Assembly (NCBI GenBank): GCA_001563305.1
Contig: CP013703.1
Location: 1,413,773-1,477,772, forward strand
DNA length: 64,000 nt
Direction of reading: 5' to 3'
DNA from: a methanogenic archaeon mixed culture ISO4-G1
Lineage (GTDB): Archaea; Thermoplasmatota; Thermoplasmata; Methanomassiliicoccales; Methanomethylophilaceae
Below, piece by piece: positions 7,925 through 11,953 of the stretch. Every line of letters begins with the position of its first letter. Within the stretch, counting starts at the first letter, position 1. The position numbers and the translations under genes are program-made. The notes under the pieces are model-generated. The model worked only from the letters and a program-made list of their open reading frames with translations. It was not told where the DNA came from and searched no databases.

Positions 7925-9043
7925 TCAGAGGACGACGAGATTCTCCGCCAGGATTGCTTCCTTGTGGTCCTTGCGGCCCAAGGCGGCCTCCAGATCGGCG
8001 CTGTGCTTGCCCGCGATGGCGGACATGTCCTTGGAACCGTAGTTGGCGATCCCTTTGGCGATCCTCTGACCGTCGCAGACGATGTCGACGACCTCGCCCT
8101 TGTCGAACGATCCCTCAACGGAACGTATGCCGACCGGCAGAAGGGACTTGTGATCGAGCACGGCCTTCACCGCACCCGTATCGATCGTCAATGTGCCAGA
8201 TGCGTGAGCGGACTTGATCCATCTGCGTTTCTTCGTGATCTCGTTATCAGAGACGAATATCGTTCCGATATCGTCGCCGGTGACCGCCCTGTATACCGCG
8301 TCCTGCTCCTTGCTGGATGCGATTATCATGCTGCAGCCAGCATCCTTGCAGATCTCCGCGGCATCGAGCTTGGTCCTCATACCGCCGGTACCGAGCCCCG
8401 TGCTGCTGTCCCCGGCCATGGCACGGACCGACTGGTCCAAGTTGCGGACCTCGGGCACGAGCTTGGCATCCGGGTTCTTGGTGGGGTCGGAATCGTACAG
8501 CCCCTTCACATCGGAGAGTATCACGAGCAGGTCCGCGTCGGTCCTGCTGGCGACTATCGCGGAGAGGGTGTCGTTATCACCGAACTTGATCTCGGTGATG
8601 CACACCGCATCGTTCTCGTTGAAGATGGGGACGACCCCGTTCTCAAGGAGAGAATTGATGGTGTTGTTGAGATTGATGGCGCTGTCCCTGTCCGAATACG
8701 TGTCGAGGGACATCAGGACCTGCCCTACGAGCATCCCCTGCCTCTGAAAGCTGTCCGACCATCTCTGCATCAGGATACTCTGGCCGACGGATGCCGCGGC
8801 CTGCCTTATCGGGATGTCGTTGGGGTTCGCCTGGACCTTCATGGCCCTGAGTCCCACACCGATCGCACCGGATGTGACTATCAGGACCTCCTTCCCCTCT
8901 TCCCTGAGTGCCTTGACCTGCTCGGCCACAGAATCCATGAAGTCGATGGATATCGTCTTCCTTCCCTGCATCAGGGACGTGGTACCTATCTTGATCACCA
9001 CGCGGTCCACATTTCCCAAGAGCTGTTTCCTGGACATGTTCAC
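7925..9043 (-). CDS. proB: Glutamate 5-kinase
   Basis: 372 residues: amino-acid kinase domain (N-terminal VVIKIGTTSL, TSGAIGVGL, GTGGMRTKLDAA) followed by a C-terminal PUA domain from about residue 280. It phosphorylates glutamate to gamma-glutamyl phosphate, the first step of proline synthesis. Length and two-domain layout are those of bacterial ProB. The start overlaps the end of proA by four bases (ATGA), so proA-proB form a transcriptional unit in that order. No proC is in the window. The 3' end abuts gltB convergently. Confidence 0.95.
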   Translation of the reverse strand: MNMSRKQLLGNVDRVVIKIGTTSLMQGRKTISIDFMDSVAEQVKALREEGKEVLIVTSGAIGVGLRAMKVQANPNDIPIRQAAASVGQSILMQRWSDSFQRQGMLVGQVLMSLDTYSDRDSAINLNNTINSLLENGVVPIFNENDAVCITEIKFGDNDTLSAIVASRTDADLLVILSDVKGLYDSDPTKNPDAKLVPEVRNLDQSVRAMAGDSSTGLGTGGMRTKLDAAEICKDAGCSMIIASSKEQDAVYRAVTGDDIGTIFVSDNEITKKRRWIKSAHASGTLTIDTGAVKAVLDHKSLLPVGIRSVEGSFDKGEVVDIVCDGQRIAKGIANYGSKDMSAIAGKHSADLEAALGRKDHKEAILAENLVVL

Positions 9044-10452
9044 CTCAGGGGATACTCCTTATCCGGATGTGTATGCTTGAACGGTCTGGCACTCTTGCCC
9101 ACGTAGTCCTTGACTACCTGTCCGTCGCCGATGAGGACGTACTTGTAGATCATCAGCCCCTCCATTCCGACGGGGCCTCTTGCATGGATCCTGTTGGTGC
9201 TGATTCCGACCTCCGCGCCCTTCCCGAATCTGAATCCGTCCGCGAAACGGGTCGATGCGTTGACGAACACGTCCGCCGAATCGACCTTTGCGGCGAACTT
9301 GGCGGCGTTGGCCTTGTTGGTGGTGATTATCGCATCAGTGTGGTGGGAACCGTGCCTGTTGATGAACGCGATGGCATCATCCAGATCATCCACCATGCCC
9401 ACTGACACGATGAGGTCGTTGTACTCCTCATCCCAATCAGACTGCCCCTCGGGGACCACATCCGCCACCGCCCGTCTGATGGCGGCCGTGTGATGGGTGT
9501 CGGGGTCGACGACGACGCCGTCGACCTTGAGGGTACCGTCCCATTTGGACTCCTTCGCCGGGATCGCGTCCGGCACGATGGCCCTGATTCTCTTGTCCCC
9601 GCGGACCTCCACGTTCTTGGACCTCAGTGCGGCTATCGCTTTGGATACGAATGCGGGGTTCGTCCCCCTGTCGAATATGATGTTCTCGACCGCGTTGCAT
9701 GCGGCGGGATACTGGATCTTGGAATCCACGATGACCTCCAGTGCCTTGGTCTCGTCGAACTCCTTGTCGACGTATATCGTGCAGATTCCTGACGAATGGC
9801 CCAGCACCGGGATCCTGGTGTTGTCCTGGATGTACCTGACGAAACTGTTGGATCCCCTCGGGATCAGCAGGTCTATGTACTCGTCGAGAGCGAGTATCGC
9901 ACTGACGTCCTCCCTGGACTCCAGCAGCACGAAGGCCCCCTTAGGGGTGCCTGCGGACTCGGCGGCCTCGCTCAGTATCCTGAACAGTGCGCCTATGGTA
10001 TTGGCGGCCTCGCTGCCGCCCTTGAATGCCACACAGTTCCCCGACTTGAGGCAGAGCGACATGACCTGGGGGACCACATCGGGACGGGATTCGAACACCA
10101 CGCCCAGCATGCCTATCGGGCATCTGATCTGATACAATGTGAGATCGTCGTCCAGCTCGGTGACGTCCATCACCTCTCCGACCGGATCGGGCAGTGCCAC
10201 GACGCTCATCACACCTCTGACCATCTCATCGATCTTGGCATTGTCAACGACCAGGCGCTTGTACATGGCCTGCGGCAGATTGCTCTCCTCCGCATTCTTG
10301 AGGTCCATTCTGTTAGCGTCGATTATGGCTCCGCGGTTATCGTCCAGCGCGTTCGCCATAGCGATCAGTGCCCTGTCCTTCTGCATCCTGTTGAGGGTAC
10401 CGAGTTCCACCGTTGCCGCTTTGGCCGCCTTGATCTGCTCGATGATGGTCAT
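9040..10452 (-). CDS. proA: Gamma-glutamyl phosphate reductase
   Basis: 470-residue aldehyde-dehydrogenase-fold protein that reduces gamma-glutamyl phosphate to glutamate semialdehyde with NADPH. The catalytic-cysteine region is recognisable (KIQYPAACNAVENIIFD), and a HARGPVGMEGL segment near the end is typical of ProA. It is slightly longer than the usual ~420 residues, with an extended C-terminal tail. It is the first gene of the proA-proB unit and lies next to tRNA-Ser on the other strand. The bacterial-type ProBA route suggests ancient lateral acquisition (inference). Confidence 0.95.
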   Translation of the reverse strand: MTIIEQIKAAKAATVELGTLNRMQKDRALIAMANALDDNRGAIIDANRMDLKNAEESNLPQAMYKRLVVDNAKIDEMVRGVMSVVALPDPVGEVMDVTELDDDLTLYQIRCPIGMLGVVFESRPDVVPQVMSLCLKSGNCVAFKGGSEAANTIGALFRILSEAAESAGTPKGAFVLLESREDVSAILALDEYIDLLIPRGSNSFVRYIQDNTRIPVLGHSSGICTIYVDKEFDETKALEVIVDSKIQYPAACNAVENIIFDRGTNPAFVSKAIAALRSKNVEVRGDKRIRAIVPDAIPAKESKWDGTLKVDGVVVDPDTHHTAAIRRAVADVVPEGQSDWDEEYNDLIVSVGMVDDLDDAIAFINRHGSHHTDAIITTNKANAAKFAAKVDSADVFVNASTRFADGFRFGKGAEVGISTNRIHARGPVGMEGLMIYKYVLIGDGQVVKDYVGKSARPFKHTHPDKEYPLR

Positions 10453-10508: not shown

Positions 10509-10594
10509 GCCGAGATAGCCAAGCCCGGTATGGCGGCGGTCTCGAAAACCGCTGGGCCTAGCCCTCGGGAGTTCGAATCTCTCTCTCGGCGCCA
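10509..10594 (+). tRNA. tRNA-Ser (anticodon CGA), CCA encoded
   Basis: Acceptor GCCGAGA (10509-10515) pairs with TCTCGGC (10584-10590). Anticodon stem GCGGT/ACCGC with loop CTCGAAA gives CGA. A class II variable arm (GGGC-CTA-GCCC) is present. The T arm is GGGAG-TTCGAAT-CTCTC, discriminator G, CCA encoded. Its 3' end is duplicated about 1.1 kb downstream, marking it as the attachment gene of a small island. Confidence 0.95.
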
Positions 10595-10597
10595 TTC
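10571..10597 (+). repeat. Left attachment-like repeat (3' end of tRNA-Ser)
   Basis: The tRNA-Ser 3' end GTTCGAATCTCTCTCTCGG continuing to CGCCATT is matched at 11713-11737 with a two-base deletion in the CT run and one changed base at the left edge. Integrases commonly use tRNA 3' ends as attB, leaving the intact tRNA on one side. Confidence 0.55.
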
Positions 10598-10733
10598 TCA
10601 CCTTATCATTCGGATAAACCTTGATATGAACTATATAATTGGCAGAGTTTGGTCGCTTAGGAGCCACATCCCTCTGCCGTGCCCCCCGATTGGGACGAGC
10701 AAATGATGGATTGCGCCGTTATATCGATTACGT
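10595..10733 (+). other. Short region after tRNA-Ser with an orphan promoter and possible gene remnant
   Basis: A strong TATA-like ACTATATAATT lies at 10630-10640. About 40 bases on, a GTG at 10679 opens a frame starting VPPDWDEQMMDCAV that then runs antisense into fic and shows no recognisable domain. It may be the cut 5' end of an older gene or a non-coding transcript. No better explanation is visible. Confidence 0.25.
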
Positions 10734-11333
10734 TCAGAAAGTTAGCAGATCGGAAATTAGGGATTCCATCTTTCTGTAGTCGCATACCATGGAATCCGAT
10801 GCGGCGTCGATCATCCTTTGAGGATCCAGTCCATCGAAGGAGATTGAATGTCCAGACTCGACAACCAGCTGCTGAATGAACTTGCGCTGGGTGCGCCCAT
10901 TCCCTTCCCTGAAGGGGTGGACAGCGTTGAGTTCACCGAAATAGTAGGCGAGTCTGGAGACGTATTGGCCCCTGTCGGTGATATCTTTGAGAAGATTCTC
11001 CTTATGCAGTTGGGAGAATATGGAGTCCAACTGGGATTGGATGTTAGCACAATAGCAGAACGGGACTCCTTTGGATATCTCCACCGTTCTGAACTCGCCT
11101 GCCCAATCATAGATGTCCTTGAAGATACGGTGGTGAATGGCTCTGAGGTGATTCGTATCGAAGCCTCCTTTGACAGGATCGGCATCCAGCTGAATCATGG
11201 CAATCAAAGTCAGCCGGCCCTCTGCTGAAACAAGCTCATCATAATCTGTGATGCCCAGCAAATTGCGAAGCACGTTAGAATCAGGATAACAATAGATGTC
11301 ATCCTTCACATGGAAATACGGCTCAATAGTCAT
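10734..11333 (-). CDS. fic: Fic family protein adenylyltransferase (toxin of a Fic toxin-antitoxin pair)
   Basis: 199 residues with the complete Fic motif HPFREGNGRTQR at 139-150, including the catalytic H139, the E/GNGR phosphate-binding loop and the terminal R150. Fic enzymes transfer AMP from ATP to target proteins; known toxins of this class hit DNA gyrase or topoisomerase IV. I see no inhibitory S/TxxxE(G/N) helix in the toxin itself, so it depends on the separate small protein encoded just upstream (class I arrangement). The ATG overlaps the antitoxin stop. The region looks less GC-rich than its surroundings. Confidence 0.9.
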   Translation of the reverse strand: MTIEPYFHVKDDIYCYPDSNVLRNLLGITDYDELVSAEGRLTLIAMIQLDADPVKGGFDTNHLRAIHHRIFKDIYDWAGEFRTVEISKGVPFCYCANIQSQLDSIFSQLHKENLLKDITDRGQYVSRLAYYFGELNAVHPFREGNGRTQRKFIQQLVVESGHSISFDGLDPQRMIDAASDSMVCDYRKMESLISDLLTF

Positions 11334-11488
11334 GATCTGTATTCGGAGATGATCTGACTTATAGCATCATCGAAGGACATCTCGCCTTTAAGACATCTGA
11401 GAGCGAGGAGCTTCGTTTCCTCCGGAATGTGGAAACCCTCGGCTTCGACAGAGCCGACGTTGCTGTTGATTATGGCCATCTCATCCAT
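11330..11488 (-). CDS. VbhA-like antitoxin of the Fic module
   Basis: A 52-residue protein starting at ATG 11488 (ATG 11479 is an alternative) and ending in a TGA that overlaps the fic ATG. It contains SVEAEG at residues 13-18, matching the inhibitory S/T-x-x-x-E-G/N motif whose glutamate blocks ATP gamma-phosphate placement in the Fic active site. A short amphipathic part follows (LRCLKGEMSFDDAI), resembling the conserved 'GEIS.DEAI' end of VbhA-family antitoxins. Size, order and overlap all fit the vbhA-vbhT layout. Confidence 0.85.
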   Translation of the reverse strand: MDEMAIINSNVGSVEAEGFHIPEETKLLALRCLKGEMSFDDAISQIISEYRS

Positions 11489-11712
11489 GGATTACCATAT
11501 GCTCTGGACCGAGTTAAAAGTATTGATGGTAGGCCCCTGGAACCGAATGAGGGGCATTTGGCAATACGGTAAGAAGGGTGAAAGAAGGCGTTTCTAGAAG
11601 AAGATCGAACTATGTCTTGCAGCTTTCTTCAAGTGATGGCGTAGAGATGTTGCTAAACAACTTGAGGAAGCCCCGCCTAATGGCGAAGCGCCCACTTTGT
11701 CTGGCTCTATGA
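11489..11712. other. Gap upstream of the Fic module, no gene recognised
   Basis: About 220 bases with no convincing coding region. A plus-strand frame from a GTG near 11578 to a TGA just before the tRNA-like repeat encodes about 44 residues without a recognisable domain. The stretch probably holds the antitoxin promoter and decayed island sequence. Confidence 0.3.
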
Positions 11713-11737
11713 GTTTCGAATCTCTCTCGGCGCCATT
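11713..11737 (+). repeat. Right attachment-like repeat (degenerate copy of tRNA-Ser 3' end)
   Basis: TTTCGAATCTCTC followed by TCGGCGCCATT copies the 3' end of tRNA-Ser(CGA) with two bases missing from the CT repeat. Upstream of it there is no foldable tRNA body, so it is a partial duplication rather than a second tRNA gene. Together with the tRNA it encloses the Fic module. Confidence 0.55.
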
Positions 11738-11953
11738 TCCTCCCTTCTTGTTATCCCCACGGCCTAGGGGACACCATCAAAGCAGACGGCCCGCCACACT
11801 GATAACAGGCATAAGAACCAACCTCTTTGGAACCGAACCTCCTGTACATACATCCGAGCCTTGGTGATGGTCACGATCACCTCGAACGCATGAAAGCACC
11901 CTGATAACAATAAATCTCAGTTCGACCTACTAACGATGCGAAGGGTCGGTGAG
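11738..11953. other. Gap between the island edge and the PhzF-like gene
   Basis: About 215 bases without a gene that I can support. A minus-strand reading contains a CxxC-like fragment (CYQCG) but no intact frame, so it could be gene debris. The promoter for the next gene is probably the AATAAATC element near 11909. Confidence 0.3.

Follow-up and report, generated by a model that had tools for sequence, protein, structure and literature searches.

What left a second copy of the end of tRNA-Ser(CGA) downstream of the gene, with a fic toxin gene enclosed between the two copies? The question arises in a stretch of 64,000 nucleotides (hereafter the window) of a genome assembled as a single contig of 1.59 Mb, whose methyl-coenzyme M reductase (PF02249, E 9.5e-62) marks it as that of a methanogenic archaeon. 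The tRNA gene (10509-10594, + strand; ARAGORN, Rfam RF00005) lies to the right of proA (9040-10452) and is intact. The earlier note had placed a copy of its end about 1.1 kb downstream, and this was borne out: 3 edits separate the copy AGTTTCGAATCTCTCTCGGCGCCA at 11712-11735 from the tRNA's final 25 nt, and an exact 17-bp core, TCTCTCTCGGCGCCATT, is shared by the left att copy (10580-10596, +) and the right one (11721-11737, +), a displaced copy of the tRNA 3′ end, with a spacing of 1,141 bp. The insert is therefore flanked by a direct repeat of the tRNA 3′ end. No match to the tRNA end within 3 edits was found on either strand of 20 simulated 64-kb sequences, and when up to 3 mismatches are allowed, the window contains two occurrences of a 20-mer taken from the copy, against 0.01 expected.

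Two genes of a putative toxin-antitoxin module, both on the − strand, lie within the insert. The upstream ORF (11330-11488, 52 aa), which overlaps fic, matches the antitoxin motif (S/T)xxxE(G/N) as SVEAEG; it is called VbhA-like here by motif (SxxxEG) and position only, and it had no Pfam match and no convincing PDB match. fic itself (10734-11333, PF02661) encodes a 199-aa protein with an intact HPFREGNGRTQR motif, which matches the class I motif HxFx(D/E)GNGRxxR; its nearest solved relative is VbhT (PDB 3zcb, E 4.7e-38), and a scan of named genomes gave one bacterial relative, at 45%. To the left of fic, a TATA-like TATATAAT at 10632-10639 is a candidate promoter, and a short unstranded piece (10663-10709) recurs beside a HEPN gene in a relative, G011 (2790-2831; local alignment, blastn E 8e-6 over 39 bp). 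Earlier, the space between the repeats had been described as holding only fic, its antitoxin and debris. The two genes stand, and the supposed debris before the tRNA-end copy proved to be a conserved right arm (11614-11720, +), about 105 bp just inside the copy (model R1, 108.4 bits), preceded by an extension of the right end (11563-11613, +) common to G011, with 90% identity over 176 bp in all. Beyond the copy, the 11738-11935 segment, formerly noted as CxxC debris, had no match in the 7 relatives compared, and for the phzF that follows, G043 has a 76% match that lies downstream of a right end. The window left arm is down to about a dozen bases, which could be chance, so the left junction was judged from the tRNA alone. 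As the earlier note had stated, no integrase is left: there is no integrase ORF between the two att copies, and no homologue of the G001 integrase described below was found in the window genome at E<=1e-80, the best weaker match having 33% identity. The island is accordingly classed with the remnants or derivatives of integrative elements and not with their autonomous members.

The same note had proposed that the locus may be the scar of a larger element, and such elements do exist in relatives. In G001, an element of 32,023 bp between cores is located at tRNA-Ser(CGA), with a tyrosine recombinase gene (PF00589, E 8.6e-16) about 144 bp from the tRNA. The possibility of a suicidal SSV-type element, in which the att site is within the integrase gene and integration splits that gene, was rejected, because the integrase ORF of 425 aa is uninterrupted and stands clear of the tRNA by that distance. 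Its cargo includes CobN/Mg-chelatase proteins and a nitrogenase-like protein (L047 and L062; G001:C84:21.5-53.6 kb); further ORFs of this island resemble, by eye, an iron-type ABC transporter. G003 carries an element of 36,018 bp at tRNA-Ser(GCT), with a recombinase 74% identical to that of G001, also beside the tRNA, and a cargo of an Eco57I-type methylase, a ResIII helicase and PKD-domain proteins. Of 10 proteins of this element scanned, 9 had no PHROG family and 1 fell in a DNA helicase family, while no viral relative of the G001 integrase was found in an IMG/VR scan. A left end of about 220 bp is common to G001, G002, G011 and G003. Recombinases matching that of G001 at E<=1e-80 were found in 3 of the 102 genomes of the archaeal family, the window genome not being among them. 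A different tyrosine recombinase gene of the window genome (315 aa, L142:3996-5148; G000:C1:352995-354147) is located about 130 bp downstream of tRNA-Glu(CTC), and a nearby ORF (L142:7430-8080) resembles, by eye, one in the 36-kb element of G003.

The right arm defines a family of such elements. A sequence-only model built from nine copies matched 10 of the 102 family genomes, with 11 full copies and one fragment, and gave no extra matches when widened to 147 genomes of the order (10/147), where the stricter filters of both searches may have missed weak copies. For nine of the 11 full copies, the DNA read showed a link to a tRNA-Ser gene; the remaining two, in G002 and G043, were near contig ends and had no tRNA in that DNA. 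Some of the assemblies of relatives are fragmented. The att core tracks its target. Elements at tRNA-Ser(CGA) carry TCTCTCTCGGCGCCATT or shorter or longer versions of it (10-18 bp), the G003 element at tRNA-Ser(GCT) has the 20-bp core ATCACGTCCTCCACGCCATT, and the G050 element at tRNA-Ser(GGA) has the 20-bp core ATCTCCCTCTCGGCGCCATT. We consider this change of core with the tRNA target to be the key result and the strongest sign of true site-specific integration.

We then asked what occupies the corresponding site in relatives, as the earlier note had proposed. The tRNA-Ser(CGA) locus was opened in 22 of 31 genomes of the genus (all except G005, G009, G012, G022, G041, G043, G044, G045 and G046). 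The genes between tRNA-Ser(CGA) and dnaJ-dnaK differ by genome, from 0.66 kb in G017 to more than 15 kb in G003 and G018, which makes the locus a hotspot of insertion. At 7 of the 22 loci an element end was seen, be it the left, the right or both, namely in G000 (the window genome), G001, G002, G011, G018, G024 and G042. The comparison yielded the bigger element of G001 and a matched pair of sites, and no empty allele of the window's own island among the 22 loci. G042 and G018 share 99.3-99.4% identity over 34 kb, and G042 has an extra 2,262 bp, lacking an integrase, exactly between tRNA-Ser(CGA) and an 18-bp repeat. These are a filled and an empty site, which could have arisen by insertion in G042 or by clean loss in G018. 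In G018, most of the 17 kb from tRNA-Ser(CGA) to the older right end is taken up by a single open frame of 4,904 aa (L038:4265-18979), which probably encodes a surface protein.

Small islands without an integrase ORF were found in five genomes: 585 bp in G062, 1,141 bp in the window, 1,477 bp in G011, 2,262 bp in G042 and 3,790 bp in G050. The G011 island plainly reads as a deletion product, since its left end is a 76% match to G001 and a 33-residue integrase fragment with a stop is kept there. With the window island it shares, besides the right end, 39-47 bp of the left piece. Its cargo, a HEPN/MNT toxin-antitoxin pair (HepT-like PF01934 and nucleotidyltransferase PF01909) absent from the window, occupies the position of fic and its antitoxin. 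With flanks in common and cargo different, the two islands show an exchange of modules. The G062 right end runs straight into the left end of another element, in tandem. The insert of G042 carries an acyltransferase (PF01757), and a decayed right-arm fragment near its left end (L102:14526-14591; G042:C1:794026-794091) suggests a composite of two elements.

Taken together, these observations make it very probable that the 1,141-bp island belongs, as a deletion derivative lacking the integrase, to a family of integrative elements with exchangeable cargo that target the 3′ end of tRNA-Ser genes in this archaeal family. The scar proposed at the outset is thus supported by the elements of G001 (32.0 kb) and G003 (36.0 kb), both with an integrase beside the tRNA, and by G011, which combines an integrase fragment with the same right end as the window. 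A tyrosine recombinase would have joined the att site of the element with the tRNA 3′ end, whereby the tRNA was rebuilt at the left and the old 3′ end was pushed to the right. Afterwards, the element would have lost its left arm and integrase and kept the right arm and core. Fic and its antitoxin were probably held because losing the antitoxin while the toxin persists would be costly, and cargo was probably swapped between the ends by recombination of elements stacked in tandem at one tRNA. Elements at serine tRNA genes grade from 36 kb, with an integrase, down to a 0.6-kb stub, and a filled site is matched by an empty one; for this reason steps of decay and cargo exchange may be read directly.

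Since an integrase is present in only 2 of the 9 tRNA-linked elements, it is not proven that the small form arose by decay, and it may be a form of its own. According to this alternative, to which we give tentative and clearly lesser credence, the small islands are functional non-autonomous cassettes of cargo plus right att arm, moved in trans by the integrases of resident full elements, somewhat in the manner of tRNA-anchored gene cassettes or MITE-like islands. The precise integrase-less unit that separates the near-identical G042 and G018 would be expected of such cassettes, as would the five sizes of unit listed above, none of which has an integrase ORF, and the shared flanks of G000 and G011 around different two-gene toxin-antitoxin cargo. 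However, the integrase fragment of G011 indicates that at least one small island is a deletion product, the difference between G042 and G018 could have come about in G018 by clean deletion between 18-bp repeats, and no close cognate integrase now exists in the window genome or in G042, both of which are single contigs. A broader and similarly doubtful version would have the clade maintain a stock of miniature islands that lack an integrase and consist of one conserved right att arm and either a toxin-antitoxin pair or a single cargo gene, which insert at tRNA-Ser in trans through the integrases of passing full elements and have their cargo swapped between the same ends. Should the small forms still be mobile, archaea would have very small islands mobilised in trans.

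G008 raises a different possibility. The earlier note had named fic at this locus without a flanking repeat as an observation that would speak against an island, and G008 literally presents it, with an antitoxin and a fic stump at tRNA-Ser(CGA) and no repeat or element ends. Its module matches the window at 86% over the fic start, the antitoxin and about 75 bp beyond, and in the window these 75 bp beside the antitoxin run on into the right end. One could thus suppose that fic and its antitoxin are old residents of the locus in this clade, with a separate element inserted around or beside them. We consider this improbable, because in the window the two att copies enclose fic and the module was found at only 2 of the 22 genus loci; our own reading of G008 is that its right end was lost later. 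Hardly worth retaining is the idea that the tRNA-end copy is a chance or gene-conversion duplicate unrelated to integration, with fic arriving separately, since, for all that the repeat is partly low-complexity CT and the fic-module remnants of G008 have no repeat, only 0.01 matches were expected, the adjoining arm of about 105 bp is conserved across elements and ends integrase-bearing islands, and the core varies with the tRNA isoacceptor; the G003 and G050 cores already contradict such an origin.

Five fic modules were compared: those of the window, G008, a second copy near 227 kb in the window genome (G000:C1:226914-227502; L109:6914-7502), G001 contig 31 and G046. The antitoxin is kept 5′ of fic in the four other modules, and its frame is open in all five, with a one-base loss near its end in G008. 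The toxin is intact in the window only. In the other four it is broken, being truncated in G008, frame-broken in G046, interrupted by a TAG in G001 contig 31, and in frame-broken pieces with the altered motif HPLRESNGR in the second copy of the window genome, whose open antitoxin has 60% identity; some of these breaks may be assembly errors. This loss of the toxin first fits, indirectly, what would be predicted for an addictive toxin-antitoxin pair, and it lends the suggestion that the scar was kept for its addictive module a measure of indirect support. A toxin-antitoxin pair can, on this showing, survive longer than the element by which it may have been carried.

Elements of this kind are already known, and no description of this particular family was found in the titles and abstract beginnings of the open-access papers surveyed. 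Classical (non-suicidal) archaeal tyrosine recombinases include the integrases of pNOB8 and PYG1 (PMC8371274). Elements that use recombinases of this class at tRNA genes resemble the window's family in having the tRNA 3′ end as att site, a direct repeat and, in full relatives, an integrase beside the tRNA, as well as in tandem stacking and module exchange. The family differs from them in its conserved right arm of about 105 bp and its use of three serine tRNA genes, and in the lack of an integrase from the window copy and from several relatives. The toxin gene resembles VbhT/VbhA, a class I Fic toxin-antitoxin (PDB 3zcb, 3shg), in its HPFREGNGRTQR motif and the small predicted SxxxEG antitoxin just upstream, but is a stand-alone protein of 199 aa and is found in an archaeon. 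Integron gene cassettes consist of cargo with a recombination site at the right end and accumulate beside a fixed site. The window's family likewise combines cargo with a right-end recombination site and gathers at a fixed site, but has no arrays of single genes, and the folding of its right arm is weak in most copies.

As to the nature of the right arm, two candidates were tried and rejected. A coding end was sought by three-frame translation of nine copies, where one frame was open in several and had stops in G000, G011, G002 and G003; and in a search for known RNAs, the tRNA alone reached the Rfam gathering score. Folding of the bottom strand into an attC-like single-stranded site was weak, with z from +0.4 to -2.0 in 8 of 9 right ends and -4.5 in one, and one pair of 31 covaried in the alignment. 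Within 11614-11737, an imperfect inverted copy of the core was seen, with ATGGCG..AGAG facing CTCTC..CGCCAT, and a similar ATGGCG.GGAGG lies in the left ends, some 22 bp away from the tRNA; both are possibly binding sites of the recombinase.
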